Below, piece by piece: positions 6,630 to 63,657 of a stretch of 64,000 nucleotides of DNA. Position numbers and translations under genes: made by a program. The notes below the pieces were generated by a model that did no database searches, was not told the DNA's origin, and worked only from the letters and a program-made list of their open reading frames with translations. Source of the stretch: Bacteroidia bacterium (lineage in GTDB: Bacteria > Bacteroidota > Bacteroidia > CAIKAF01); assembly GCA_030427255.1 (NCBI GenBank), contig JAUHWY010000003.1, positions 1-64,000 on the forward strand. Reading direction: 5' to 3'. Each line of letters opens with the position of its first letter. The first letter of the stretch is position 1.

Positions 6630-6656
6630 AGCAAAAATCTCCAAACGGAGCTTAAC

Positions 6657-6810
6657 GCGCCCCGGCGGAGGCCAATTAGCCTGCCGAAGTGGGGTGCTCA
6701 GCCGCCGCGGGGGCAAGAGCGACCACAGGAAGCTCCTTGCCCCCGCATAGCGGCGTAGCTACCCCACAAGGCAGCTAATGGCCGGAGACGGATAAGGCGC
6801 CCAAAAAAAA
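6657..6810 (-). repeat. GC-rich long-palindromic intergenic element, copy 1
   Basis: Minus strand TTTTTTTTGGGCGCCTTATCCGTCTCCGGCC...GGCCTCCGCCGGGGCGC; nested arms GTGGGG../..CCCCAC and GCGGGGGCAAG../..CTTGCCCCCGC; starts right after the stop of the 6822 gene. Confidence 0.75.
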
Positions 6811-10740: not shown

Positions 10741-11193
10741 ATGAGCCTGGAAAACACCATAAATCAAGACATCAAAGAGGCCATGAAGGCCAAGGACAGC
10801 CAAAAACTTGCCGCCTTGCGTGCCGTGAAGTCGGCGATTTTGCTGGCCAAAACCGAAAAGGGCGGCGACCAAGGCCTGAGCAAGGAACAAGAAATGGCCC
10901 TGTTGCAACGCTTGGTGAAGCAACGCAAAGAATCTTATGAGCTTTACATAGCCCAAAACCGCGAAGATTTGGCGCAGGAAGAAAAGCAGCAAATGGAGGC
11001 CATTGAGGTTTATTTGCCCGCCCAACTTTCCGACGAGGCCCTCAAAACCGAACTTCAAGCCATTATTGAGGCCCTGGGAGCGACCGGCCCCGGCGACATG
11101 GGCAAGGTTATGGGTCAGGCCAACCAAAAGTTGAAAGGCCAAGCCGAAGGCGCACGCATCGCCCAAATGGTAAAGGAATTGTTGAATAGTTAG
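10741..11193 (+). CDS. GatB/YqeY domain-containing protein
   Basis: MSLENTINQDIKEAMKAKDSQKLAALRAVKSAILLAKTEKG. Confidence 0.93.
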   Translation: MSLENTINQDIKEAMKAKDSQKLAALRAVKSAILLAKTEKGGDQGLSKEQEMALLQRLVKQRKESYELYIAQNREDLAQEEKQQMEAIEVYLPAQLSDEALKTELQAIIEALGATGPGDMGKVMGQANQKLKGQAEGARIAQMVKELLNS

Positions 11194-11346
11194 GGGCTTG
11201 CCTGCGGCCGGGCTGTCCGTTCCAAGGCGCCCATCGCCCTGTGTTTTTTTGGGGACTGCTCGGGGGTTTGCTGCGCGCCACCTCCGACCAGTCTCCCAAC
11301 AAATACACAGCCCTCAGGTCGGCTTTCCTCTCCCATCCCTAAGCCA
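11194..11346 (+). repeat. GC-rich intergenic element, copy 2 (divergent)
   Basis: Starts right after the YqeY stop; contains GGGCTGTCCGTTCC, GGGGTTTGCTGCGCGCC and GGTCGGCTTTCCTCTCCCATCCCTAAGCC. Confidence 0.5.
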
Positions 11347-11362
11347 AAATCCTCTTAAATAA

Positions 11363-16705: not shown

Positions 16706-16706
16706 G

Positions 16707-16858
16707 TTTTTTGGGCGGCTGTTCCGGCTGCCTGCTCCAAGTCCTCAACCCCATCCCAAGGCTAGCTAAGGCTACGGGTGCTTGCCAAAGGCGCCGCAGC
16801 CTCGCCTAAGCTTGCCTAGGGATGGTGTTTCCGGGCTTTCTGCGCCATCCGGGCCGCG
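16707..16858 (+). repeat. GC-rich long-palindromic intergenic element, copy 3
   Basis: TTTTTTGGGCGGCTGTTCCGGCTGCC..CAAGTCCTC...CCGGGCTTTC..CCATCCGGGCCGCG directly after uppP stop; arms ACCCCATCCCAAGGCTAGCTAAGGC / GCCTAAGCTTGCCTAGGGATGGTG. Confidence 0.75.
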
Positions 16859-16966
16859 TGTTCCAATGAGCAGAGCTACAAAAACAAAAAATTACTAATT
16901 TTCCTGCCAAATACGCCTTACCCTTTATAAAGAAAGGCATGTTGCCAAACCTAGAAAAAATCAATC

Positions 16967-22457: not shown

Positions 22458-22511
22458 GATGTACAAAGAAAGTAAAAGAGAGGAAAGGAGAGGAATTAGG
22501 TATTTTGGAAA

Positions 22512-22659
22512 AGCGCCCCGGACCGCAGGGAAAGCCCGGAGTACAGAGAGCCATGGCCGGTGGTAAGGCGGCAGCGGAGCGCATGCGAGCTCGCCGGCTT
22601 GCCTACCGGCCAGGCTTTCTGTACGAGGACTTGAACTAAGGGCCGGAAATGGCGCCCTA
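22512..22659 (-). repeat. GC-rich long-palindromic intergenic element, copy 4
   Basis: Minus strand TTAGGGCGCCATTTCCGGCCC..CAAGTCCTCGTACAGAAAGCC...GGCTCTCTGTACTCCGGGCTTTCCCTGCGGTCCGGGGCGC; begins at the stop codon of the HAD gene. Confidence 0.8.
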
Positions 22660-23289
22660 ATCCAACAACCCTTCGCGCAAAAGCAACTCTTTTAGCGTAT
22701 CGCCCTTGGTTAAATCGAGGTGTAGCCCTTTGATACCCACGGCAGATGCTCCTTTAGCGTTTTCGGGTAGATCATCTACAAAGACGGTGGTGATGGGGTC
22801 TAGCTTTTGCTCGTCCAAAATGAGCTGATAGCCTTCCGGGTCGGGCTTTCGGTGGCCAATGAGGTGGCTGTAATAGGCTTTTTGAAACAGAGATTCAAAA
22901 TCGAGCTCGGGATGCAATTGCTGCACCATGCTGCGGTAGGTTTGGTAGTGCCAATCGTTGATATTGGACCATAAATACAAGCGGTATCGCTGCTTTAATT
23001 GACGCAAAAGCGGCAAGGTATCGGGCCAAATACCATCGAGTATGGAGTCCCAAGCGTGTCGAATTTGTTGTTCAGAAACCCCATTAGGCGCCATGGCCAG
23101 CATTTCATGGGCGAAGGCTTGTCCGTCGATTTGGCCTCTTTCGAATCGGTACAAGATATTGTTCGGTCCGGGTTCAAAAAATACATCTTTTAATCCATGC
23201 ATACCCAAGGCACGAAAATTGTTTCCGACCGCTTCATAATTGGTTTTGAGCAAAACGCCGCCCAAATCAAGAATCACATTTTGAATCAT
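22657..23289 (-). CDS. HAD family hydrolase (HAD-IA)
   Basis: MIQNVILDLGGVLLKTNYEAV; YLWSNIND; GHRKPDPEGYQLIL; VFVDDLPENAKGA. Confidence 0.92.
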   Translation of the reverse strand: MIQNVILDLGGVLLKTNYEAVGNNFRALGMHGLKDVFFEPGPNNILYRFERGQIDGQAFAHEMLAMAPNGVSEQQIRHAWDSILDGIWPDTLPLLRQLKQRYRLYLWSNINDWHYQTYRSMVQQLHPELDFESLFQKAYYSHLIGHRKPDPEGYQLILDEQKLDPITTVFVDDLPENAKGASAVGIKGLHLDLTKGDTLKELLLREGLLD

Positions 23290-30906: not shown

Positions 30907-30939
30907 GGGACAAAGATACGAGACCGAAGGCTTTTTTGA

Positions 30940-31355
30940 TTTTGGGCCCCGGGCGGGCTGCCTGCTGCAAATCCTCGCCCGGAGGCTAAGGGCTGCCGCA
31001 GCTCCGGGTGCCCCCGAAGTGTCGGGGGCATCCTCGCTTGCGGCATCCCTAAGCCTCCGTGCTGTGGGTTTTTCGCGGCATCCCTGGGCCTTGAGCCCCT
31101 CTTCCATGTTGGGAACAATACACCTTATAGAATTACGGGCTAGGGACCGCACGAAAACCCCTTGCAGGCGAAAGGTTGCAGACCCATGGGCCCCGGACGT
31201 GGAGCGCATGCGAACGCTCCGAGGCCCTTGGGGCTGCCCTTGAGCCAAAAGGAGTTGCAGTAAGGGCCCGGCGGGCCTCTTTTCATAGCTCCGGAAGAAC
31301 GAAAAACTCACTAAATAAGAGCCTTGCTAAGTGCTGCAATAAGGCCCGGGCCCTA
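30940..31355. repeat. Composite GC-rich palindromic intergenic region (probably two copies of the element family)
   Basis: Plus strand TTTTGGGCCCCGGGCGGGCTGCCTGCTGCAAATCCTCGCCC...; minus strand from lysC stop TAGGCTAGGGCCCGGGCCTTATTGCAGC; internal GTGCCCCCGAAGTGTCGGGGGCAT hairpin. Confidence 0.55.
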
Positions 31356-40926: not shown

Positions 40927-42336
40927 TTGGGGCAGTTTCTATCCATAATCGATGTGTTTTGGTTGCTTGCTCTGCCCATTGGACTCAATGTTTGGGCGAG
41001 AGTGCAGGTCGAAAAAAACTTGGCTACCAAACCCCATTTCCGCTTTTTTCGTCAAGCCCTCAACTACCGACTGCTCATGGGTATGGCATTTATTGGCATT
41101 TACCTGTTTGTATATGGCGGGGGCGACACCATCAATTACTGGCTTGGCGGTAATGCCATGAAAAACCTATTGCTCCAAAGCCCGGGACGTTACTTGGAAA
41201 TGATGTATGGGGAACCTACTTGGGCCAAGTACTGGAATAATTTTAATGCCGATACGGGCTACCCACCCACCTGGCTTTATCGGAGATTAGAAAACGTGGT
41301 TGTGATTCGCTTTGCCTCTATTCCCTTGCTTTTTACCGGGGGTAGTTTGGTTGGTGGCACCATGGTTTTTGCCTTCTTTTCCTTTAAGGCCATTTGGAAG
41401 CTTTACGAAATGTTCATTTACTATTTCCCTAAACATGAGAAGGTGTTAAGTTGGTCTATTCTTTTCTTTCCTTCAGTAGCATTTTGGGGAACAGGCATTA
41501 TGAAGGATACACTAACCATGATTGGCATGGGGTATTTCTTGTACATATTTTACCGCCGGTTTGTACTTCGCAATATTTCCTTATTGCCATTTCTGTTTTG
41601 GCTGTTGGTCTATGGATACATTGTGTACATAGTTAAGCCCTATGTGCTTATTGCATCTGCACCGGCTTTGCTCATTTGGTTGAATATTGAAACCATTAGA
41701 CGCATCAAAAGTGTGCTTATTCGAGTGGTGGTGCTTCCTTTAGGCTTAATTACTACCATTTTACTTGGCATTGTTGCCTACCTAAACTCCGGAGAAGCCT
41801 TTGGCGAATATGCTCCCGATACCATTTTGGAAAGAGCCGCCATTACCCAACAAGATTTGGTACGCGAAGATGCCTATGGAGGAAACAGCTTTGATATTGG
41901 TGCCTTTGACCCCACCATTGGTGGTGTGCTTTCAAAAGCCCCTGTAGCCATTTCGGCAGGATTGTATCGTCCTTTTTTATGGGAATCCGGAAATATAGTT
42001 ATGCTTTTCTCAGGACTCGAAAACACCTTTCTGCTGTTGATTAGTCTTTTCTTATTAATCAAACTTTCACCTATTGGGGTTTTTCGTCGTATTCAGGCCT
42101 ATCCGCTCTTTTTCTTTTGCTTTATATTTTCTCTGTTGATGGCCTTTTCCATTGGCCTTACTACGGCCAATTTTGGAGCCTTGGTGCGCTACAAAATTCC
42201 TTTACTGCCTTTTTATGCATCCATGGTAATGCTCATGTATCGATTGGAGGGCAGTTATAAAGCCGAACAAAAAAAGGTGAAAGAAATCAAGGCAGAAGAA
42301 GCACGAAAGGCAGAAGAGGCTGAGGTTAAAGCTTAA
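40927..42336 (+). CDS. Multi-pass membrane protein of unknown function (TTG start)
   Basis: 469-aa ORF with many hydrophobic segments; KEIKAEEARKAEEAEVKA tail. Confidence 0.65.
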   Translation: MGQFLSIIDVFWLLALPIGLNVWARVQVEKNLATKPHFRFFRQALNYRLLMGMAFIGIYLFVYGGGDTINYWLGGNAMKNLLLQSPGRYLEMMYGEPTWAKYWNNFNADTGYPPTWLYRRLENVVVIRFASIPLLFTGGSLVGGTMVFAFFSFKAIWKLYEMFIYYFPKHEKVLSWSILFFPSVAFWGTGIMKDTLTMIGMGYFLYIFYRRFVLRNISLLPFLFWLLVYGYIVYIVKPYVLIASAPALLIWLNIETIRRIKSVLIRVVVLPLGLITTILLGIVAYLNSGEAFGEYAPDTILERAAITQQDLVREDAYGGNSFDIGAFDPTIGGVLSKAPVAISAGLYRPFLWESGNIVMLFSGLENTFLLLISLFLLIKLSPIGVFRRIQAYPLFFFCFIFSLLMAFSIGLTTANFGALVRYKIPLLPFYASMVMLMYRLEGSYKAEQKKVKEIKAEEARKAEEAEVKA

Positions 42337-42437
42337 ATTGCTAGGACATTCATCTTGCCCAAAAGGGCGATTTCTTAATTTCGGTTAAGGTGATTTATAT
42401 CATAAATTTTAAAATAAAAGATTCTCAACTTTGCCTA

Positions 42438-42833
42438 GTGAAACGGTTTATTGGAATAGCAATGTATGTTTTAGCCATCGGCTTTTGGCTTATTCATGCA
42501 TTTACTCCACACCATCACCATGGTTCATTTATTGCCATAGAGCAACAAGGGATTGACCACATCACCACTGCCGAACACAACCCGCTTCATGATTGGCTTG
42601 AGGTAGACTTAGGAAGCAACCACCTGAATCTTGGGCTTCGCAAATCAGCAGAGCATAATTTCTGCATCCCACCTTATTCACACTTCATAAGTATTAACGA
42701 GGCTACGCCTTCACTACTAAAAGTAGAAAAATCCTTTTCTCCCCGCTCGAGCCGCCCTGCCTTTGTAAAATCTAGGTTTAAGAACCCTCAACCTGGAAGA
42801 GTGCCCGTGGGGCACAGCCCTCCTTTGGTGTAA
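42438..42833 (+). CDS. Small His-rich protein upstream of metal-efflux genes (GTG start proposed)
   Basis: VKRFIGIAMYVLAIGFWLIHAFTPHHHHGSF; TCAACTTTG -7-like box just upstream. Confidence 0.6.
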   Translation: MKRFIGIAMYVLAIGFWLIHAFTPHHHHGSFIAIEQQGIDHITTAEHNPLHDWLEVDLGSNHLNLGLRKSAEHNFCIPPYSHFISINEATPSLLKVEKSFSPRSSRPAFVKSRFKNPQPGRVPVGHSPPLV

Positions 42834-42896
42834 TGCAACACTTTTTCTCTGCCTCTTTACAGAAGCAGGTTTTTGCCTTACAACCAAACTCTTAGT

Positions 42897-45800
42897 ATGT
42901 TTCTTAGTAAAATTATTGGATTCTCTATCCAACATAAATCATGGGTTGGATTTGCCATAGTCCTTTGGACCCTATGGGGTGCTTGGTCCCTATATCATTT
43001 ACCCATAGATGCTGTTCCCGATATAACCAATCACCAAGTTCAGCTGGTTACCACTGCTCCACATTTAAGTGCCGGAGAAATGGAGCTTATGGTAACCGAA
43101 CCTTTAGAACGTCGCTTTTTTCATTTGCAAGGCTTGGTGAACATGCGCTCCTTAAGCCGTTATGGCCTTTCTGTTATTACGCTGGTCATAGAGGAAGATA
43201 TGGATCCGTTCCATGCGCGCCAACTGGTGAGCGAAAGATTAAAGGGCATAGAAAACGAATTGTCTCCGGGGGTAAATCCTCCGGAAATGTTACCTATGAC
43301 CACCGGACTAGGGGAAATTGTTCAATACCGACTCAAACAGCAGCCCAACATAAGCCCCAAATATACCTTGCAAGAACTCCGGTTCCTTCAGGATTACCGG
43401 ATCAAACCCTTGCTGGCAGGGATTCCGGGTATTACAGAAATCAGCACCTTTGGGGGCTACGAACCGGGCTATACCTTTATTCCCGATCCACATAAGCTTC
43501 GTTCCGCAAATATGGACCTTTTGAGCTTAAAGCAACAGCTTCTAGGCTTCAACTTAATTGGTGGAGGAGGCTACCAAAACATTCAAGGAAAAAGTCAATA
43601 TTACCAACTTGATGGCAGGCTGAATGAAGCTCGGGGTCTGGAACAAATTTCCGTACAAAATCGGCAGGGAAAAACCTTTAGGCTATGGGAGCTTGGCCAT
43701 ATAGATAGTACGGCGGAGACCTTACGATTTGGAGCGCTTACCGCTGATGGCCAAGGAGAAGTAGTTGGCGGCATTGCTCTTCTTACCAAGGGAGCCAACG
43801 CTTTTCAAGTAAGTCAGCAGGTTTCCGAACGAATTGCAGAAATTCAAACCACCCTCCCAAAGGGACTCGAAATTCAAATCTACTTAGATCGTGCCAAACT
43901 TGTAGGGCGCACCATTCGCACGGTAAAGACCAACTTAATGGAAGGCGGACTGATTGTGCTGTTTGTACTCATTCTGTTTCTAGGGCACCTGCGCGCAGGC
44001 TTGGTGGTGGCTAGTGTTATTCCCTTATCCATGCTCTTTGCGGCAGGCCTAATGCGCACCTTTAACCTAAGTGGCAACCTTATGTCTTTGGGGGCTATTG
44101 ACTTTGGCCTTATGGTAGATGGCGCCGTTGTTTTGGTCGAAGGGGTATTGCACTCCCTACACCGTCAAGGCCTTCTTAAAAATTCAGCGGAGGTGTCAAA
44201 TAGGGTAAGCTTGTCCGTTTCTAAGCGCTTATTAAGCCCGGCCCTTTTTGGCCAACTTATCATTTTGGTGGTTTACATTCCGATTCTTTCTCTACAGGGG
44301 GTGGAAGGTAAAATGTTTAAACCCATGGCATTTACCGTCATATTTGCCATGACCGGTGCCATTCTATTATCTTTCACTTATGTGCCCGCCATGACTGCTG
44401 CCCTGGTTGCTCCCCGGCCCAAAAGTACAGGGCCCTGGGCCGATTGGCTCTTTAAAAACATCTCCAAAGGATATACCCGTGTGCTTCGCTTTTCGCTTCG
44501 AAAAGGAGCTATGGTGATTAGCCTGTCGTTGCTTTTACTGGGTGCTTCTATAGTTCTTTTCACCCAACAAGGCACCGAATTTATCCCAACCTTGGAAGAA
44601 GGAGATTTAGCTATGCAAATGACCGTACCTCCGGGTACACCTCTAGACACCATGGTGGCAAAAACTCAACGGGTAGAAAGCGCTTTGATTCAAAAATTTC
44701 CTGAAGTAAGGTCTGTGGTTTCCAAAATCGGCACCTCCGAAATTCCCACCGACCCTATGGGCTTAGAGGATGCAGACATCATGATTCTTTTAGAACCCAA
44801 GGAGCTTTGGACAACGGCCCAAAACCGAGAAGCCTTAGTAGACTCCATGAAATTCTATTTGCAAGGCATTCCTAACGCCTCTTTCGAATTCACACAACCT
44901 ATTGAACTAAGATTCAACGAACTGCTTAGCGGAGCCAAAAGTGATTTGGTGTTTAAGGTCTATGGCCCAAACAGGGACAGCTTGGTTGGCATTGGTAAAC
45001 GGATGGAGGTGATGGCAGAACAAACCAGAGGAGCCTCAGACATTAAACTAGATGTAACAGAAGGCCTACCTATGAAACAATGGAAACCTAACTATTCCCT
45101 TTGTCAAGCCCACGGAATTAGCCCGGATGAGTTGAACCAACTTTTGGAACTTGCCAGTTCAGGCACAAAGCTTTCGGACATCCGAAAAGATGGCGGTTTA
45201 AAAAGCTTTTCGTTAAGACTACCCCAAAGCTGGAGAGCACAAAAAGATGCTTGGCAATACCTTCAAATTCAAGCAAAGTCCGGCGAGCTGCTTCCGCTTG
45301 GTCTATTCCTTTCCGCGGAAACACGAACCGGGCCCGTACTCATAAGTCGTGAAAAAGGTCAGCGGTTTATTGCGTTAGGGATTAATGTTAGAAACCGCGA
45401 CATGGGTTCCTTGGTAGAAGAGTTGCAAACCAACCTAAAAATGCACCTGAATTTACCGCCTGGCTACACCCTTAGCGTTGGGGGAGATTTCGAAAACCTA
45501 AACAGGGCCAAAAAGCGCCTGCTCATTGCCCTTCCACTGGCCCTAGTGCTTATTGCCTTCTTGCTTCTTTTGGCATTAAAACAAGTACTAGACGCCGCAG
45601 GCGTGTTTTTAGCCATTCCGTTTTCTGCGATCGGGGGCATTTTTATGTTGTATGCATTTGGGCTACCCTTTAGCATATCGGCAGGCATTGGTTTCATAGC
45701 CCTTTTTGGCATTGCGGTGCTCAACGGCTTAGTTATGGTCAATGGCTATAAAAACAAACAGTTCGAGGGCCATTCTTACCTCACCGCCGTTTGGAAAGGA

Positions 45801-47171
45801 AGCCTAGAAAGGGTTCGGCCTGTGCTAATGACGGCTACGGTTGCCGCTCTTGGCTTCTTGCCTATGGCCTTTTCTACCGGCGATGGTGCCGAAGTTCAAA
45901 GGCCGCTAGCCCTAGTAGTAATTGGGGGCTTGGTTTCCTCTACTTTATTAACCTTAATTATTCTTCCCATTGTGTTTATTGAACGCTTCAAACGCTTTGG
46001 CAAAAACAAAGCACTAACCGGCCTAGCCCTTCTTTGCCTGTTTGGTACCGCTCAAGCGCAAGTGGGTCCCCAACAAGTTATGGATTTGGCTCAACAACAT
46101 GCCCCGGAGGTCCACGTTTGGGAAAAAGAACTCCAAGCCGCTGCTCCTTTGGCAAAGTTTCGTCCCAACCTGGGCAGCACCGACCTGCTGTACCAACGCG
46201 GACAAATCAATGGCCTTATGCAAGATTACTTCGTAACCCTTAGTCAAGACTTGGGAAACCCTGTTTCTTGGTTTACTCAAAAAGCCGAAGGCCAACGCTT
46301 TTTGGAACTGCAACAGGAAAAACTGAATCAAAGCATCCTTCAAAATCAATGGCTTGCCCTTTCTGCTTGGGTAGATTGGACGTATCAGACCCTGATAAAA
46401 CAGCTCATTGAGCAGGAATACGAACTCTTGTTGCAGGAAAAAAGCCTGCTCAAAATTCAAGAAGAAACAGGCCAGTCCGGAAAAGCCGCTTGGCTTCTTG
46501 CCGACCTGCAAGCCATGCGCCTGCAACAAGATATGGACGAGGCACAGCACAAAAAAGACCATGCATTCTTAATGCTAAAACACCTTTGTGGCGATAGCTT
46601 AAGGCCTGATGTGGATACCGCTGCTTATTGGGAAATCGGCTTTTTGGCCTCGCCGCAAAAGCCCAATCCCTCCCTTCTTGTGGCTCATGCAGAAACCCAA
46701 TGGGCTCAAGCGCAGTGGAAGCATGCCCAAAGCCGGCATTTGCCTCGTTTTCATGTCGGATATTTTACTCAACAACTCGAAGGCCAACCAGGATTTAACG
46801 GCTGGCAAGTGGGTGGCAGTTTCCCCTTGTTTTCAATGGCCCAATACGCCCAAACCCGGTCTTTAGCTCTAAATACCCGTGTTTACGAGGCCAAAAGCAT
46901 CCTGATTCAAAGCCAAAGTCAGGTCGCACTTAAACAAGCCCAAATGGAGCAACAACACCTGACTCAAAGGAAAGAAGAGCTGGAAGCGTATCTGCAAAAA
47001 AACTTGGAAGCACTGGCTGCTTTAAACCTCCAACTGAAACAAGGTGGCCTCCAAGGCCAAAGCCTTTACCTCCAAAGCCGTAGAGAGCTTCTAAAACTTC
47101 GTCAAGAATGGCTTGGCCTCCAACGTCAGCTTTGGTTTAATCTAATTGCTCAACAACAAAACAACATCTGA
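42897..47171 (+). CDS. CusA/CzcA-type heavy-metal RND efflux transporter fused to a C-terminal TolC-like outer-membrane factor domain
   Basis: RND motifs (AGEMELMVTEPLERRF; GAIDFGLMVDGAVVLVEGV; FGIAVLNGLVMVNGYKN), then LALLCLFGTAQAQVGPQQVMDLAQQHAPEV... TolC-like. Confidence 0.95.
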   Translation: MFLSKIIGFSIQHKSWVGFAIVLWTLWGAWSLYHLPIDAVPDITNHQVQLVTTAPHLSAGEMELMVTEPLERRFFHLQGLVNMRSLSRYGLSVITLVIEEDMDPFHARQLVSERLKGIENELSPGVNPPEMLPMTTGLGEIVQYRLKQQPNISPKYTLQELRFLQDYRIKPLLAGIPGITEISTFGGYEPGYTFIPDPHKLRSANMDLLSLKQQLLGFNLIGGGGYQNIQGKSQYYQLDGRLNEARGLEQISVQNRQGKTFRLWELGHIDSTAETLRFGALTADGQGEVVGGIALLTKGANAFQVSQQVSERIAEIQTTLPKGLEIQIYLDRAKLVGRTIRTVKTNLMEGGLIVLFVLILFLGHLRAGLVVASVIPLSMLFAAGLMRTFNLSGNLMSLGAIDFGLMVDGAVVLVEGVLHSLHRQGLLKNSAEVSNRVSLSVSKRLLSPALFGQLIILVVYIPILSLQGVEGKMFKPMAFTVIFAMTGAILLSFTYVPAMTAALVAPRPKSTGPWADWLFKNISKGYTRVLRFSLRKGAMVISLSLLLLGASIVLFTQQGTEFIPTLEEGDLAMQMTVPPGTPLDTMVAKTQRVESALIQKFPEVRSVVSKIGTSEIPTDPMGLEDADIMILLEPKELWTTAQNREALVDSMKFYLQGIPNASFEFTQPIELRFNELLSGAKSDLVFKVYGPNRDSLVGIGKRMEVMAEQTRGASDIKLDVTEGLPMKQWKPNYSLCQAHGISPDELNQLLELASSGTKLSDIRKDGGLKSFSLRLPQSWRAQKDAWQYLQIQAKSGELLPLGLFLSAETRTGPVLISREKGQRFIALGINVRNRDMGSLVEELQTNLKMHLNLPPGYTLSVGGDFENLNRAKKRLLIALPLALVLIAFLLLLALKQVLDAAGVFLAIPFSAIGGIFMLYAFGLPFSISAGIGFIALFGIAVLNGLVMVNGYKNKQFEGHSYLTAVWKGSLERVRPVLMTATVAALGFLPMAFSTGDGAEVQRPLALVVIGGLVSSTLLTLIILPIVFIERFKRFGKNKALTGLALLCLFGTAQAQVGPQQVMDLAQQHAPEVHVWEKELQAAAPLAKFRPNLGSTDLLYQRGQINGLMQDYFVTLSQDLGNPVSWFTQKAEGQRFLELQQEKLNQSILQNQWLALSAWVDWTYQTLIKQLIEQEYELLLQEKSLLKIQEETGQSGKAAWLLADLQAMRLQQDMDEAQHKKDHAFLMLKHLCGDSLRPDVDTAAYWEIGFLASPQKPNPSLLVAHAETQWAQAQWKHAQSRHLPRFHVGYFTQQLEGQPGFNGWQVGGSFPLFSMAQYAQTRSLALNTRVYEAKSILIQSQSQVALKQAQMEQQHLTQRKEELEAYLQKNLEALAALNLQLKQGGLQGQSLYLQSRRELLKLRQEWLGLQRQLWFNLIAQQQNNI

Positions 47172-48211
47172 TGAAAATCCTCTCTTTCAATATCTCGCTT
47201 AGCTTTTTTGGGCTGCTCTTTTTTGCCTCTTGCCATAGCAATCCGGAAAAAGACGCCGCCCTTAAACCTAACGACATGCGTCCTAGCAAAGACACCGTTC
47301 GGTTAATCATTAAACAAGAAAAGTACAGCTTCCAAGCGCAACTGGTTCCCGGTCCCAACGAAAGCTTTGAGCAATGGATTCCCATGCCGCTCTTTGTCCA
47401 AGAATGGTTGATTATGCCAGGAACCCTTGTTCAAAAAGGCCAACCCGTCGTGCGCATGCAGCACCCGGACTTGATGGCCGCCGGTCAATCCTTTATTGCT
47501 TTAACCCAAGAAGAGCAACAAAAAGAACAACGATGGAAACATTTAGAGGAAGCAGCACAAAAGGGTGCCTCCGGTCATGAACAAGCTGCCGCAGCCAAAA
47601 CCGATTGGGTTCGGTGCAAGGCCGAGCGGGAAGCCTTAGGAGCCAAGCTTATTTCACTTGGCTTGGACCCATTCAGCCCCGGCTTTAAACCTTCGGCCCA
47701 AATACAACTCCGAGCTCCCAAAAGCGGCTACCTATCGGAGGGGCTAGCCACCGAAGGGGCATTAGCGGGAACGGACACCAAGCTCTTTACCTTAATTGCC
47801 CAACAACCTAGTCAATTCCGAATTGAAACATTAAGCAAACCCGAAGGGCTTAGTCTAGGCGACACATTATTCGACCCGCAGAGCTCTCTTAGCTTACAGC
47901 TTACCCGGTGTTTACCCCCTCAGAATGCAGCCAATCCACTTTGGATATTATTTGCTGAATCCAACCGTCCCACCGGCATTGCTCCCTTTTCTTGGACCAC
48001 CCTGCATTGGCATGGAGAAGTGGACAGTGTTGGAGTCATTGCTCAACCCCAAGGTTTCAACCAGCGCAGCATTAAGCTGGTAAGTCCTGATGGCAAAACC
48101 ATAGAGGCCCAAACCCAAATCGATCCTATTGCCGGAGAATTGCTGTTGGACAAAACCTTTGTTGGATTCGCCGTGGCCACGGACAAAACGGAAACAGCTG
48201 ATGGCTTTTAA
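47171..48211 (+). CDS. Efflux RND transporter periplasmic adaptor (CusB/CzcB-like), lipoprotein
   Basis: SFFGLLFFASCHS lipobox; EWLIMPGTLVQKGQPVVRMQHPDLMAAGQSFIALTQEEQQ; LRAPKSGYLSEG. Confidence 0.9.
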   Translation: MKILSFNISLSFFGLLFFASCHSNPEKDAALKPNDMRPSKDTVRLIIKQEKYSFQAQLVPGPNESFEQWIPMPLFVQEWLIMPGTLVQKGQPVVRMQHPDLMAAGQSFIALTQEEQQKEQRWKHLEEAAQKGASGHEQAAAAKTDWVRCKAEREALGAKLISLGLDPFSPGFKPSAQIQLRAPKSGYLSEGLATEGALAGTDTKLFTLIAQQPSQFRIETLSKPEGLSLGDTLFDPQSSLSLQLTRCLPPQNAANPLWILFAESNRPTGIAPFSWTTLHWHGEVDSVGVIAQPQGFNQRSIKLVSPDGKTIEAQTQIDPIAGELLLDKTFVGFAVATDKTETADGF

Positions 48212-48212
48212 G

Positions 48213-48388
48213 TTTGGGCACCCAATCCTGCCCTCCTTGCAAGTCCTCGCAGGGCAAAAAAGGAGCGCTAGGCAGTGCAGGGGCTTACTGCGTGCCGCCG
48301 CTGCCTGCCAAGCGCTCCTAATTTGCCCTCCTCCAGGCTCCATGAGTCCTGACCGAAGCGTCAGGGCTTTCCACTCGGTCAGGGGCGC
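48213..48388 (+). repeat. GC-rich long-palindromic intergenic element, copy 6
   Basis: TTTGGGCACCCAATCCTGCCCTCCTTGCAAGTCCTCGCAGGGCAAAAAAGGAGCGC...GCGCTCCTAATTTGCCCTCC...CAGGGCTTTCCACTCGGTCAGGGGCGC, directly after adaptor stop. Confidence 0.85.
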
Positions 48389-48616
48389 AAAATTCTCCGG
48401 TATTGCGAGCTCCATAAAAAAGAAAACACCCTAAGCTTCATCAACCCAGTAAATTCCGTACCCACCAAAAGCCCTTCCCCCACCCAATGGCTCTACCAAC
48501 AAATAATCCTATTTTAGGTGATTAAAACCTAAACATCCCGGCCCATTACCTCATCCAAGCTTTTGCCGCAACTTTTCAACCTTAGGTTGATTTCCAATTT
48601 AAGTAATATTCCGGAA

Positions 48617-49186
48617 ATGACTGAAATTCTAGAACAATACATAATTGAACGCTTCAGAAAAAGGCCCGAAAACCTGGATAAGGTATTGCTAAACTTTGAG
48701 TTTAAAAAGGTTAAGCGGGGAACGCATCTGTTGACCCAAGGTGAAGTCTGCAAATACGTGTACTTTGTCCTTAAGGGCTGCATTCAAGTGTATATACTTG
48801 ACAAAAACGGCAACGAAGCTACCCGGTCCTTCTATTTTGAAAACGGCTGGGTTACCGACATTTTTGGATTCAAAAATCAAAGGCCCTCCACAGAGTTTAT
48901 CAAATGCATTGAACCTTGCGAATTGTTGCGCATACACTTTCATGCATTTCAAGCCATGTGTAAGGAAGTTCCCCAATTCGATGCCTTGTATAAGGAAATC
49001 CTGGAAGCCTCCTACAATACTACAGTTTATAGGGTAAACACCTTAACATCCCTCAATGCGCTTGAACGGGTGCAATGGCTCATGGAAACCAAGCCCCTCA
49101 TTATGACCCGACTTTCCAGCAAGCTTATTGCCTCCTATTTAGGCATTTCCCCGGAAACCCTTACCCGCCTAAAATCCAAACTCTAA
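48617..49186 (+). CDS. Crp/Fnr family transcriptional regulator
   Basis: FKKVKRGTHLLTQGEVCKYVYFVLKGCIQVYI; C-terminal SSKLIASYLGISPETLTRLKSKL HTH. Confidence 0.93.
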   Translation: MTEILEQYIIERFRKRPENLDKVLLNFEFKKVKRGTHLLTQGEVCKYVYFVLKGCIQVYILDKNGNEATRSFYFENGWVTDIFGFKNQRPSTEFIKCIEPCELLRIHFHAFQAMCKEVPQFDALYKEILEASYNTTVYRVNTLTSLNALERVQWLMETKPLIMTRLSSKLIASYLGISPETLTRLKSKL

Positions 49187-49260
49187 AATCTTGACAATTG
49201 TCAAGAGCCAAGCAGGCCCCATTTTGGAATTTTGTTCCACAAACATCAAAATTCAACAAA

Positions 49261-49608
49261 ATGAAAGAGTACTTATTATTGTTTTGGAACGAATCAGGCG
49301 ACGATCAATACCAAATCGATCCTGAGAAAATGAATGATGGAATGAAGGCTTGGCAAGCATGGATTGGAAATATTGCCCTGCAAGGAAAGCTGGTTTCCAC
49401 AAAGCCCGTCCATTGGGATGGCATTCAAATCGGGCATGAAACCAGAAAGGACAGTCCGGTAATTGCAGATAAAATTATGGTTACCGGCTACTTGATTTGC
49501 AAAACAGACCAAGTGGATGAAGTGGTAGAATGGGCAAAAACCTGCCCCATACTCCGCAGTCCAACAGGCTTTACGGAAATCAGAGAAATTGCCCCCTTCG
49601 AAATGTAA
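49261..49608 (+). CDS. YCII-related domain protein
   Basis: MKEYLLLFWNESGDDQYQIDPEKMNDGMKAWQAWIGNIALQGKLVS...ADEVVEWAKTCPILRSPTGFTEIREI-type C-terminus. Confidence 0.88.
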   Translation: MKEYLLLFWNESGDDQYQIDPEKMNDGMKAWQAWIGNIALQGKLVSTKPVHWDGIQIGHETRKDSPVIADKIMVTGYLICKTDQVDEVVEWAKTCPILRSPTGFTEIREIAPFEM

Positions 49609-49639
49609 GAAGAGGCAATAGCCATCAGCTTGGGTAGGG

Positions 49640-49786
49640 TTTGGGCGCCATATCCTGCCCTCTTTGCAAGTCCTCGTAGGGCAAAAAAGGAGCCCTAGGC
49701 AGTGCATGGGCTTACTGCGTGCCGCCGCTGCCTGCCAAGCGCTCCTAATTTGCCCTCCTCCGGGCTTTCCACTCGGTCAGGGGCGC
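49640..49786 (+). repeat. GC-rich long-palindromic intergenic element, copy 7 (near-identical to copy 6)
   Basis: TTTGGGCGCCATATCCTGCCCTCTTTGCAAGTCCTCGTAGGGCAAAAAAGGAGCCCTAGGCAGTGCATGGGCTTACTGCGTGCCGCCGCTGCCTGCCAAGCGCTCCTAATTTGCCCTCCTCCGGGCTTTCCACTCGGTCAGGGGCGC. Confidence 0.9.
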
Positions 49787-49803
49787 TAGATTCTTCAAAA
49801 AAA

Positions 49804-49979
49804 TAGCCCCCCGGCCAAACGAAGGACCCTTTGAAGGCGAAGGAGGAGCCGCCCTTAGCCGAGGAGGTGTAGCTTTGCGGAACCACCGCAGGCTTAGGAC
49901 GGCAATCCTAAGCCGAGAAGGACCGCAGTCAGGGCCGGATAGCATACTAAAACACAAATTGGAACCGGGGCCCAAAAAA
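49804..49979 (-). repeat. GC-rich long-palindromic intergenic element, copy 8, convergent to copy 7
   Basis: Minus strand TTTTTTGGGCCCCGG...TATCCGGCCCTGACTGCGGTCC..GGCTTAGGATTGCCGTCCTAAGCC...GGCCGGGGGGC. Confidence 0.65.
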
Positions 49980-58436: not shown

Positions 58437-58484
58437 AGCACAAATATACTCAGCCACCCCTCCCAACCCAAATGCCCTTTCATT

Positions 58485-58640
58485 GAGAGACGAGAGGCAT
58501 CCCGTCTTTACTTCATCATTCAGAGACGGGAAATGTCCCGTCTTTACCTCATCATTCATCATTCATCATTGAGAGACGGGAGGCATCCCGTCTTTACATA
58601 ATCATTCATCATTGAGAGACGGGAGGCATCCCGTCTTTAC
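58485..58640. repeat. Cluster of short palindromic repeats GAGAGACGGGAGGCATCCCGTCTTTAC, copies 1-4
   Basis: Copies at 58485-58511, 58521-58547, 58571-58597, 58614-58640 separated by ATCATTCATC-type low-complexity DNA. Confidence 0.92.
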
Positions 58641-58691
58641 ATAATCATTCACCATTCATCATTTAACCTTTCCTTTTTGATTCGGTATTCT

Positions 58692-58844
58692 TCCGCCCCT
58701 GATGGAAGCAGGTAGCTGACGCGGCTCCGGCCCCGGTATGCGGCCAGGCGAGGAGGCTGAGGAACGAAGACCCCGGAGCGGCCGCAGACCGTGGGCCGGA
58801 GACGTGGCACTACCGCAGACAGCAGGATAAGGCGGCCAAAAAAA
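58692..58844 (-). repeat. GC-rich long-palindromic intergenic element, copy 9
   Basis: Minus strand TTTTTTTGGCCGCCTTATCCTGC..CTGCGGTAGTG..ACGTCTCCGGCCC...GGGGCCGGAGCCGCGTCAGCTACC..ATCAGGGGCGG. Confidence 0.65.
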
Positions 58845-58845
58845 T

Positions 58846-59070
58846 GAGACGCAAGATGTTGCGTCTTTACCATATCATTGATCCTTTATCATTCATCACC
58901 CATCATTCATCATTCATCATTGAGAGACGGGAGATATCCCGTCTTTACATCATCCTTGAGAGGCGGGAGGCATCCCGTCTTTACCTCATCCTTGAGAGAC
59001 GGGAGGCATCCCGTCTTTACATAATCATTCATCATTCATCATTGAGAGACGGGAGATATCCCGTCTTTAC
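58846..59070. repeat. Second block of short palindromic repeats, copies 5-9
   Basis: Copies at 58846-58870 (GAGACGCAAGATGTTGCGTCTTTAC variant), 58922-58948, 58958-58984, 58994-59020, 59044-59070. Confidence 0.92.
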
Positions 59071-59123
59071 ATCATTCACCATTCCTCATTCCCCTCCTCC
59101 CTCCCGCCTCCTTAATTTTCCTT

Positions 59124-59920: not shown

Positions 59921-60514
59921 ATGCCCACTATGGAATTTATATGCAGCTCGGCGAAGCCAAGCCAATGCCCCGAAACGCAGGACCCCGAATTTGCCTTCCT
60001 TGGGCGGTCCAACGTAGGCAAAAGCAGCCTGCTCAACCTATTGGCCGGAAATAAAAAACTGGCCAAAACCTCCGGAACTCCCGGCAAGACCCAACTAATC
60101 AATCACTTTAAATCAAGCGAAGGCTTCTACATAGCCGATTTACCCGGCTATGGCTACGCCAAAGTGAGCAAAGTGCAGCGCGCCGACTTCAAAAAATTGA
60201 TTTACGGATATTTGGAGCAGCGCAGCAACCTCAGCTGCGCTATGGTACTCATTGACAGCCGCTTGCCTTTGCAAAACGCCGACCGCGACATGCTGGCCTG
60301 GCTGGGCGAGCGCGGCATCCCCTGCGCCATCGTTTACACCAAAGCCGACAAAAGCCCCAAAGGCGCCCTGGACAAGCAATTGGCTCAAATCCGCAAATCC
60401 CTATTGCAAGACTGGACCCAACTTCCCCCTGAATTCATTAGCTCGAGCGTAGACCGGCGCGGCGGCGAAGAGCTTTGGGCTTGGATGCGGGAAATCAGCC
60501 AATCGCTAGATTAA
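59921..60514 (+). CDS. engB: Ribosome biogenesis GTP-binding protein YihA/EngB
   Basis: AFLGRSNVGKSSLLNLLAG; TPGKTQLINHF; DLPGYGYAKVSK; YTKADKSPKG. Confidence 0.96.
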   Translation: MPTMEFICSSAKPSQCPETQDPEFAFLGRSNVGKSSLLNLLAGNKKLAKTSGTPGKTQLINHFKSSEGFYIADLPGYGYAKVSKVQRADFKKLIYGYLEQRSNLSCAMVLIDSRLPLQNADRDMLAWLGERGIPCAIVYTKADKSPKGALDKQLAQIRKSLLQDWTQLPPEFISSSVDRRGGEELWAWMREISQSLD

Positions 60515-60519
60515 TTTTT

Positions 60520-60678
60520 GCCGCCTGCCGGGCCTTCGGCTTTACTCCACGGTCTTGGGAGCTAGGTCTCCTGCCCTTCGCCGGGGCTTGCTGCGCTCCG
60601 CCGCGGCTCAGGGCGGCGGCCTAAGCTCCCAAGCCCGCGGCGGTACCGCCTCAGTCCCTGGCGGAGTGCATCGCCCAA
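60520..60678 (+). repeat. GC-rich long-palindromic intergenic element, copy 10 (~159 bp)
   Basis: GCCGCCTGCCGGGCCTTCGGCTTTACTCCACGGTCTTGGGAGC...GCTCCCAAGCCCGCGGCGGTACCGCCTCAGTCCCTGGCGGAGTGCATCGCCCAA; directly after engB stop. Confidence 0.95.
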
Positions 60679-60941
60679 ATTAAAGTTACCCCCTCGGAAA
60701 AAAGCTCTCCTAGGGCTCTAGGGCAAGATTGCCCAAGAAAAGATGGCGTCAAGAGGCTAAATAGGAAAGCGTCAAAAAACTCCACAATGGCTTGGGAAAA
60801 CAACAAAGGGCTTGAAAAGGACCTGAGCAAAAAAACTAGCTCCATTGCTTATGATGTGAAAGCCCCTGAAAAAATTTTGGGACAAGCTTCCTTAAATTCT
60901 CTTTTTTGTTAATTTTGGGATAAACGCACCAAAACTCGAAA

Positions 60942-62345
60942 ATGGTTTTCAGCAAAGAAATTCTTAGGCGTAGAATAAGGAGCGATAACCCTTGGTGGTC
61001 CAGTGCTAAAATTCCCTTTTACAGGGAATACCGGAAAAGAAAATATTACCCCGGCTTTTTTGATTTAGTCTCTCAAGCCTTTCCTCACCGAGCCGTGGTA
61101 TTGATGGGGCCTAGGCGCGTCGGCAAGACGGTGCTCATGTTCCAAGCCATTCAGGATTTAATGGATTCGGGAATAGACCCGCAACGCATCTTTTTCTTCA
61201 GTTTGGATGCCCCCATCTACACCAACCTCCCATTGGATCAATTAATCGAAGAAGGCCTCAACATTCATAATCTGGAAGTAGAGCATTGCTTCTTCTTTTT
61301 TGATGAAATACAATACCTTAAAGATTGGGAAATCCATTTAAAAGTTTTAGTTGACAGAAACCGCAACAGCAAATTCATTGCTAGCGGCAGTGCTGCTGCG
61401 GCTTTAAGAATGAAAAGCATAGAAAGTGGTGCCGGCAGGTTTACCGATTATTTTCTACCTCCACTTACCTTCTCTGAATTCATCGATTTAAATGGCTACA
61501 ACAGCCTACTCACCGAAACGGTGATTGATTACAAGGGACCACAAAAATTTTACACCTGCAACAACATTGAATTATTCAATAAACACTTTATAAATTACAT
61601 AAATTTTGGCGGATTCCCTGAAATCGCATTGAACTCCGAATTAGTCCGGAACCCCGAACAAGTCATTCAAAAAGACATTACCGATAAGGTAATTATGAAA
61701 GACTTACCCGGACTCTTTGGAATAGAAAACACGCTGGAACTTCAGCAATTTTTCAATGTCTTGGCCTACCGGACCGGTGAAATCCTTGACTACCAAAAAG
61801 TTTCTAAAGAAACCAAAACCGACAACAAAACCATAAAAAAGTACATTACCTACCTCGAAGCTGCATTTTTAATTAAGGTTTTACACCGTGTAGACATAAC
61901 GGCAAAGCGCTTTAAAAATATTACTCAATTTAAAGTGTACCTAACCAACCCCAGTTTGTATACCGGATTGTTTGGACGAGTAGAACAGGAGGATGAGCGA
62001 TTCCCCCACTTGGTAGAAACCTCGGTATATGCACAATACCTGCACCGAGGACATGAATTTTTGAGATATGCACAATGGAAACAGGGAAAGGAAGAAGGCG
62101 AAGTGGATATTATCCAATTAAGTAAACACTTTCAGAAAGTACATTGGGCCCTGGAAGTGAAATGGTCCGATAAGCCCAAGGCAAACAAGCTCAAACAGTT
62201 CATGCATAAAAACAAACTAAGCAAAGGAGTGATTACCAGCAAAACCTTATTCCAAAACCATGAGGACCTGCTCATAGTCCCTACAAGTATTTATGCTTAT
62301 GTGTTGGGAAAAAACGCCCTTTCCACTGTTCATGAACAGGGCTAA
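60942..62345 (+). CDS. AAA+ ATPase with DUF4143-type C-terminus
   Basis: AVVLMGPRRVGKTVLMFQAI; CFFFFDEIQYLKDWEIHLKVLVDRN; FIASGSAAAALR; EGEVDIIQL..HWALEVKWSDKP. Confidence 0.93.
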   Translation: MVFSKEILRRRIRSDNPWWSSAKIPFYREYRKRKYYPGFFDLVSQAFPHRAVVLMGPRRVGKTVLMFQAIQDLMDSGIDPQRIFFFSLDAPIYTNLPLDQLIEEGLNIHNLEVEHCFFFFDEIQYLKDWEIHLKVLVDRNRNSKFIASGSAAAALRMKSIESGAGRFTDYFLPPLTFSEFIDLNGYNSLLTETVIDYKGPQKFYTCNNIELFNKHFINYINFGGFPEIALNSELVRNPEQVIQKDITDKVIMKDLPGLFGIENTLELQQFFNVLAYRTGEILDYQKVSKETKTDNKTIKKYITYLEAAFLIKVLHRVDITAKRFKNITQFKVYLTNPSLYTGLFGRVEQEDERFPHLVETSVYAQYLHRGHEFLRYAQWKQGKEEGEVDIIQLSKHFQKVHWALEVKWSDKPKANKLKQFMHKNKLSKGVITSKTLFQNHEDLLIVPTSIYAYVLGKNALSTVHEQG

Positions 62346-62393
62346 AGGCTCAGCCATTACTTAGGAAAAAAATCAAAGGGGCCTGCAGTTTTG

Positions 62394-62552
62394 GCCGCCT
62401 GCCGGGCCTTCGGCTTTACTCCACGGGCTTGGGAGCCAGGCCGCCTACCCTTCGCCGGGGCTTGCTGCGCGCCGCCGCGGCTCAGGGCGGCGGCCTAAGC
62501 TCCCAAGCCCGCGGCGGTACCGCCTCAGTCCCTGGCGGAGTGCATCGCCCAA
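62394..62552 (+). repeat. GC-rich long-palindromic intergenic element, copy 11, direct repeat of copy 10
   Basis: Same 159-bp length and about six differences from 60520-60678 by eye. Confidence 0.95.
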
Positions 62553-62688
62553 CCTAAGGACCTTCAAAACAAAAGAGCAAAATAGTAAATCAAAATATTG
62601 CGCCCCAATTCCAAAAATAGTAAATAGCCAGAGCGTCATTCCCATATTTTTCTTATGTTTAATAGCATCAAATGATAGTATCAAATAA

Positions 62689-63657
62689 GTGAACCCTCCG
62701 TATCAAATCACCCCGGAAATACTAAAACGGATTACTTCTATTTCAGAAAAAATAGGGCAGATTCATGCAAATCTTCTGGATAAACCATCACCAAAGCTGC
62801 GCAAGGAAAACAAAATCAAAACCATTCATGCTTCCCTAGGCATAGAGGGCAATACGCTCACTGAGGAGCAAATCACAGCATTAATCGAAAACAAGCGAAT
62901 AATTGGGCCGAAAAAAGACGTGAATGAGGTCTTGAACGCCATTCAAGTGTATAACCAATTGGCTTTATTCAATCCCAACTCGGTCAAGTCCTTTCTAAGT
63001 GCGCACAAGATGCTTATGAATGGTCTCATTCCTGACCCCGGGAAATTTCGAAATAAAGGGGTTGGCATTATGGCAGGAAATAAATTGGCGCATATGGCCC
63101 CACCAGCCGAAAATGTACCCTACTTAATGAACGATTTGTTTGCTTATGTAAAATCATCCAAGGAGATTCCGCTAATTAAGAGTTGTGTGTTTCATTACGA
63201 AATGGAGTTTATTCACCCATTCACCGATGGGAACGGCAGAATGGGCCGTTTATGGCAAACGCGCATTTTAATGCATGAATACCCTGTGTTTGAGTTCATC
63301 CCATTTGAAAACATAATCCAAAAAACACAAACGCTCTATTATCAGGCACTCTCAAAAAGCGACAAGGCCGGAAACTCAAGCCCTTTTATTGAATACATGC
63401 TTGGGGTTATCGATGAGGCACTCAACGAAATCCTTGATTTTAAACATAGGACAATGAGCGCTAAGGATCGTTTGGCCTACTTTTTCGAAATAGCCGAAGT
63501 CGAATTCAGCCGGAAAGCGTATATGAACGTATTTAAAAATATTTCTTCGGCAACCGCCAGTCGTGACTTAAAACAAGGCCTTGAGCTCGGCTTGTTTGAA
63601 AAGCAGGGCGACAAAACCAAAACCATTTACAGAAAAAAAGCCCACCACAGCCAATAA
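62689..63657 (+). CDS. Fic family protein (GTG start)
   Basis: HPFTDGNGRMGR Fic motif; N-terminal SLGIEGNTLTEEQ inhibitory-helix-like motif. Confidence 0.94.
   Translation: MNPPYQITPEILKRITSISEKIGQIHANLLDKPSPKLRKENKIKTIHASLGIEGNTLTEEQITALIENKRIIGPKKDVNEVLNAIQVYNQLALFNPNSVKSFLSAHKMLMNGLIPDPGKFRNKGVGIMAGNKLAHMAPPAENVPYLMNDLFAYVKSSKEIPLIKSCVFHYEMEFIHPFTDGNGRMGRLWQTRILMHEYPVFEFIPFENIIQKTQTLYYQALSKSDKAGNSSPFIEYMLGVIDEALNEILDFKHRTMSAKDRLAYFFEIAEVEFSRKAYMNVFKNISSATASRDLKQGLELGLFEKQGDKTKTIYRKKAHHSQ

Follow-up and report, generated by a model that had tools for sequence, protein, structure and literature searches.

Flavo-1 (Rfam RF01705) is an abundant predicted RNA family of no known function, which Weinberg et al. 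(2010, PMC2864571) listed among the probable RNAs without a cis-regulatory role and whose hits in a transcriptome study lay independently of sense or antisense direction and in many cases outside the transcribed DNA (PMC9723704). Dispersed intergenic palindromes are also known as REP/BIME elements together with RAYT genes (PMC2817692, PMC3733652), and a literature search on intergenic palindromes in Bacteroidetes found general REP work only. Another related arrangement is the composite transposon or gene flanked by insertion sequences, which the present locus resembles in that two direct copies flank one gene.

The DNA analysed here (the window) consists of the first 64,000 nucleotides (bases 1-64000) of the 209,597-bp contig C5, which belongs to a 3.2 Mb genome designated as G000. 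Three same-orientation copies of one repeat subtype (R type), designated as R1, R2, and R3, are located near the engB gene of this contig in the following setting:

59921 to 60514, forward strand: engB/ysxC GTPase gene (TIGR03598)
60515 to 60683, forward strand: hairpin element R1, copy 10 of the earlier note (direct-repeat comparison, folding, covariance model)
60942 to 62345, forward strand: AAA_14/DUF4143 ATPase gene, 467 aa (ORF, domain search, PADLOC PDC-S01)
62389 to 62557, forward strand: hairpin element R2, copy 11 of the earlier note (direct-repeat comparison, covariance model)
62689 to 63657, forward strand: Fic-domain gene of the R2-R3 interval (ORF, domain and PADLOC matches)
contig C5 65360 to 65524, same orientation, 1.4 kb beyond the window end: hairpin element R3

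The gene order is engB, R1, ATPase, R2, then the Fic, M23, and DUF1801-like genes that occupy the interval up to R3 beyond the window, and after R3 an M28-like peptidase gene; the gene boundaries were taken from open reading frames with no gene finder, and the names M28, M23, and DUF1801 for the genes beyond the window are tentative, being based on weak similarity. R1 starts directly after the engB stop codon, and the same is true in G004, the closest relative of G000 (MAG Flavobacteriales M30B58, JAGYKD010000001.1), which is about 88% identical to it in aligned DNA. The ATPase contains the AAA_14 (E 5e-30) and DUF4143 (E 5e-20) domains and matches the PADLOC phage-defence-candidate model PDC-S01 (E 2e-52), while its GEVDII..ALEVKW segment resembles, judging from the residues, a PD-(D/E)XK motif.

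R1 and R2 are direct repeats of 169 bp with a spacing of 1874 and 95% identity (94.7% ungapped), a similarity far beyond chance, and their edges are the limit of the homology, the flanking DNA being unrelated. The description of near-identical repeats of equal orientation around a single ATPase gene, given in the earlier note, was therefore borne out. Its statement that the two copies are closer to each other than to the rest of the family is true inside the window but fails genome-wide, as R3 is 97.0% identical to R1 against 94.7% for R1 and R2, and the two copies do flank the gene but belong to a row of three with R3 rather than forming a private pair. The R type was found in two genomes only, with 7 copies in G000 and 3 in G004, and is lacking in four more distant members of the genus. 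The assemblies are draft or metagenome, in which near-identical repeats are prone to misassembly, but the distinct flanks of R1, R2, and R3 and the recurrence of R1 and R2 in G004 stand against this concern. A further R-type pair on contig C5 (182937 and 184490) is different in kind, since the similarity extends beyond the copies by about 50-80 bp on both sides and thereby suggests a segmental duplication. Each R copy is one long imperfect palindrome, which folds with about -91 kcal/mol on either strand and a z of about -4 (R1, -91.5 kcal/mol, z -4.2).

The bracketing repeats are ordinary copies of a dispersed hairpin-forming DNA element present at least 150 times in each of G000 and G004, a family of imperfect palindromes of about 165 bp with a nearly invariant apical loop. 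A covariance model built from 65 siblings, with the R copies left out, recovered R1, R2, and R3 with E 2.6e-13, 2.1e-12, and 2.3e-13, respectively, the E-values of such a home-made model being rough. The family numbers at least 150 copies each in G000 and in G004 and 110-134 in the genomes G001, G002, G003, and G005 (127 long hairpins in G001 and 134 in G005). In the window the model detected 12 members, about one copy per 5 kb, which besides R1 and R2 are the following:

6645 to 6810, reverse strand: weak family member (covariance model E 3e-4)
11186 to 11357, forward strand: family member (covariance model)
16706 to 16869, forward strand: family member (covariance model)
22501 to 22665, reverse strand: family member (covariance model)
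30936 to 31102, forward strand: family member (covariance model)
31125 to 31289, reverse strand: family member, inverted neighbour of the preceding one (covariance model)
48208 to 48367, forward strand: family member D2a, near-identical to D2b (repeat comparison, covariance model)
49635 to 49798, forward strand: family member D2b (covariance model), inside whose 3' end, at 49767, the G004 synteny resumes
49794 to 49956, reverse strand: family member abutting D2b (covariance model), within a G004-aligned block
58681 to 58845, reverse strand: family member of another subtype, upstream of the abhydrolase-engB pair (model E 8e-8)

Where copies are so closely spaced, two of them can be expected to bracket a gene, and the bracket around the ATPase is in itself ordinary: the family copies at 58681, 60510, 62384, 65355, and 67820 form a 9-kb run, each interval of which holds one to three genes. 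The D2a/D2b pair brackets Crp-like and YCII-like genes, and the 58681 hairpin has an array of GAGACGGGAGGCATCCCGTCTTTAC-type repeats on both its sides (window 58480-59075), where a G004 synteny break is located. The apical part GGGGCTTGCTGCGCKCCGCC gave 48 matches in G000, 35 in G004, and none in the control, and the loop variant TTGCTGCGCKCC gave 29-39 matches in each of these two genomes and at most two in any other of the 293 class genomes; such near-invariance of the loop may imply a binding partner. Gene orientations around 75 elements were distributed as 22/21/17/15 with no consistent direction, and the reading as a cis-regulatory leader or terminator was rejected.

The same distribution agrees with the transcriptome observation on Flavo-1 cited above, and the family shares with Flavo-1 this indifference to the direction of transcripts or genes as well as the character of a hairpin that is dispersed across the Bacteroidota and has paired motifs of the GGAAAGCCC/GGGCTTTCC type. 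Of 149 class genomes, 56 contain the flanking motif GGGCTTTCCGCT..CAATC, for which the control gave hardly any matches. The Flavo-1 model, whose gathering cut-off is 42 bits, scored 63.8, 34.7, 34.2, and 33.7 bits at motif sites in other families, with one class-wide locus above the cut-off and the others at 25-35 bits, and 24.5 bits at a G000 sibling. In the opposite direction, the family model reports Flavo-1 sites, mostly weakly (L217 with 41.6 bits, L212 with E 0.006). The present elements differ from Flavo-1 in being longer and GC-richer, in siblings that score below the cut-off, and in many loops of the TTGCTGCGCKCC sequence, which is almost restricted to G000 and G004 within the sampled genomes of the class. 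Identity of R1 and R2 with an Rfam structured RNA was rejected, there being no match above chance. Because the Flavo-1 model gave no match for R1 or R2 at E up to 1, and none for R1 at E up to 10, the family is Flavo-1-like and is not filed as Flavo-1.

The likeness to REP/BIME elements lies in the dispersed intergenic palindromes and in three Y1_Tnp (RAYT-like) genes of G000 (C44:3900, C7:20020, and C51:21024); however, the surroundings of the RAYT genes that were read carry REPs of about 20 bp, such as GCTCCGTAGGAGC and CGACCCCGAAGGGGTCG, and not long hairpins. No Y1_Tnp match was obtained in G001 or G005 although both are rich in the long hairpins, and on these two grounds RAYT-driven spread of the family was rejected.

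RNAalifold recovered only 5 pairs from the 65-sibling alignment, because the stem sequences differ and gaps break the register, and pairing was consequently tested on orthologous pairs. In 29 orthologous sibling pairs of G000 and G004 the double changes were compensatory in 47 cases and incompatible in 8; thus the pairing of the hairpin is retained, either through selection or through repair templated by the hairpin, and the compensatory changes might come partly from such repair and not from selection. In the alignment of R copies 10 cells had a change on each side, compared with 4.0 in shuffles, and the covariation exceeded both shuffles and slides.

Most elements are stable in place. By their flanks, a G000 counterpart could be assigned to 31 of the 34 core-loop elements of G004, and all 12 G000 elements between 66 and 180 kb of the contig have one at the matching place in G004. 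One subtype includes several G000 copies with no matched G004 counterpart, and a G000 hairpin in an expanded CATTCATCATT-type array (C14:66374-66665) corresponds to an empty site in G004 (C1:1081458-1081469), so some copying to new places happens, and the same process could have made R1, R2, and R3.

At the engB site G004 carries engB, R1, ATPase, and R2 at the same place, with 94% amino acid identity of the ATPase and 86.9% DNA identity of its segment, similar to the 87-90% of the surroundings; the G004 R1 is without the hairpin tip and the G004 R2 carries a 228-bp insert. Since R1 and R2 occupy matching places, they predate the split of G000 and G004. In G001 and G002, the two further genomes whose engB surroundings were read, rpe-like and sigma-factor genes follow engB directly with no adjacent ATPase. 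Outside G000 and G004, homologues of the ATPase were found at 15 named genome loci with 68-78% amino acid identity (Reichenbachiella, Marinoscillum, Fulvivirga, Cryomorphaceae, and others) and at 5 loci with 42-46% in class genomes, and in none of these 20 loci is there an R copy or an engB or M28 neighbour.

These observations bear on the composite mobile unit or captured gene proposed in the earlier note, in which R1 and R2 would be mobile ends moving the ATPase as a block. Such a unit would fit the two near-identical same-orientation copies around one accessory-type gene, the lack of the R type in the four more distant genus members together with the ATPase-free engB surroundings in two of them, and the ATTAA present on both sides of R1. 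However, ATTAA is found at R1 only and not at R2, at R3, or around the whole block, and no duplication is common to the outer ends of R1 and R2, so that the suggested check for target-site duplications outside the repeats returned nothing consistent. Unlike a composite transposon, the copies contain no transposase, and open reading frames and domain search revealed none inside or between R1 and R2, while the site is common to two species, a third copy lies beyond, the ATPase exists at 20 other loci without R, and the hairpin family is dense everywhere. A mobile composite unit is accordingly very improbable, and the comparison of genomes speaks for an ATPase that is probably not mobile with the hairpins; the simplest reading is that the common ancestor of G000 and G004 acquired the gene next to engB and that it has remained there.

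The adjacent R2-R3 interval is more variable. G000 has Fic, M23, and DUF1801-like genes there, whereas G004 has none of them at the corresponding place and only a Fic homologue (63% amino acid identity) elsewhere in its genome, and the interval was not detected by DNA in the four other genus members. Gain or loss between hairpins is plausible here, and it can be supposed more broadly that direct hairpins make the locus prone to recombination, the stretch from engB to M28 being a small variable spot of defence-like genes. The PDC-S01 match of the ATPase and the match of the Fic protein to the PADLOC SoFic model (E 3.7e-44) are in line with this, as are the capacity of near-identical local copies to recombine and a G000-only segment that ends at D2b (42327-49767 of the window, about 7 kb replaced by 347 bp in G004, with the right edge inside D2b). 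Nevertheless, the Fic protein is far below the NCBIfam SoFic equivalog cut-off (52.7 against 550 bits), and the DNA beyond the last hairpin of the engB site is different and unrelated in G004, with the result that a clean R2 x R3 deletion of the Fic interval in G004 is not demonstrable. Also, synteny junctions lie within 250 bp of an element in 5 of 20 cases against 39% of intergenic positions (by a crude ORF mask), and hairpins as rearrangement hotspots were rejected for this lack of enrichment. In another region, C5:120857-130471 of G000, 9.6 kb are missing from G004, and the right edge is 41 bp from a hairpin. The loss of the ATPase by recombination between its repeats, suggested in the earlier note, is possible, but no instance was seen for this gene, and none of the relatives compared showed an allele with a single repeat and without the ATPase. 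A recombination-prone locus is thus a possible but rather doubtful account.

Same-direction hairpins between small groups of accessory genes may also recall integron cassettes with attC-type hairpins. The attC consensus is RYYYAAC, which is matched by the GCCCAAC end of R2 but not by R1 and R3, both ending in GCCCAAA; moreover, the family occurs in both orientations among housekeeping genes with no orientation bias, and an integron-like origin is extremely improbable.

Under plain inheritance, each copy should be most like its namesake in the other species, R1 like R1 and R2 like R2. Instead, in the tree the G004 R1 and R2 cluster apart from R1, R2, and R3 of G000 (supports 0.94 and 0.88), and 6 sites group the copies by genome, 1 by position, and 0 otherwise, although with a sample of 7 and 3 R copies the 6:1 sites and supports below 0.95 are suggestive and not proof. 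In the same tree the R copy at C46 pairs across species with that at 632 kb of G004. At C14:59 kb the right flank of a hairpin is orthologous and its G000 interior matches a G000 copy 7.4 kb away and not the G004 counterpart. The grouping by genome and not by position at the engB locus argues for homogenisation rather than plain inheritance, and we infer that R1, R2, and R3 were made near-identical by a homogenisation of recent date inside the genome, for which ectopic gene conversion is the most likely mechanism and recent local copying a rival one.

Alternatively, the hairpin may be spreading actively, in which case the three copies would have been inserted separately in recent times instead of being old copies that were converted. 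The homology that ends at the element edges and the empty G004 site of one sibling would agree with this, and so would a short insert of another kind of repeat, bounded by GGAGACNGTTGATGCG..CGCATCAACNGTCTCC and containing small CCTGACCGNAGCGTCAGG palindromes, which is found in four R copies:

G000 C14:198-516: R copy with second-repeat insert
G000 C46:4629-5054: R copy with second-repeat insert
G004 C1:314796-315205: R copy with second-repeat insert
G004 C1:632165-632485: R copy with second-repeat insert

The insert point is position 52 in three copies, which represent two non-orthologous sites, as if it had been copied along, and position 36 in one. Despite this, recent insertion is unlikely, as R1 and R2 are older than the split, the two genomes have most elements at matching positions, and no consistent target-site duplication exists.

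Old dispersed Flavo-1-like hairpins, dense enough to bracket the ATPase and made alike by conversion, are therefore in our estimation the probable explanation as a whole. R1, R2, and R3 would be neighbouring copies of an old element that fills the intergenic regions of the genus, and the ATPase would stand between two of them owing to the family density and not to carriage by them; its arrival next to engB would precede the divergence of G000 and G004, and both hairpins would have been inherited with it since. Ectopic conversion among copies separated by a few kb, perhaps aided by an occasional local copying event, would have kept the three copies alike, each hairpin retaining its base pairing. 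More speculatively, and with little probability, a host protein might recognise the elements as DNA or RNA hairpins, with active copying and homogenisation of the family, and the direct copies might serve as exchange points that swap small defence-gene modules (ATPase, Fic) between housekeeping genes.

For an RNA family as abundant and as obscure in function as Flavo-1, the pair of G000 and G004 allows Flavo-1-like hairpins to be tracked site by site: they are mostly in place with their pairing kept, many have one loop sequence, and they appear to swap interiors. Stable sites, kept pairing, a conserved loop, the lack of gene orientation, and the swapping of interiors together favour a DNA-level repeat maintained by its hairpin structure over a cis-regulatory RNA, and the hairpins of these two genomes offer a clear system in which the binding partner of the loop can be sought.
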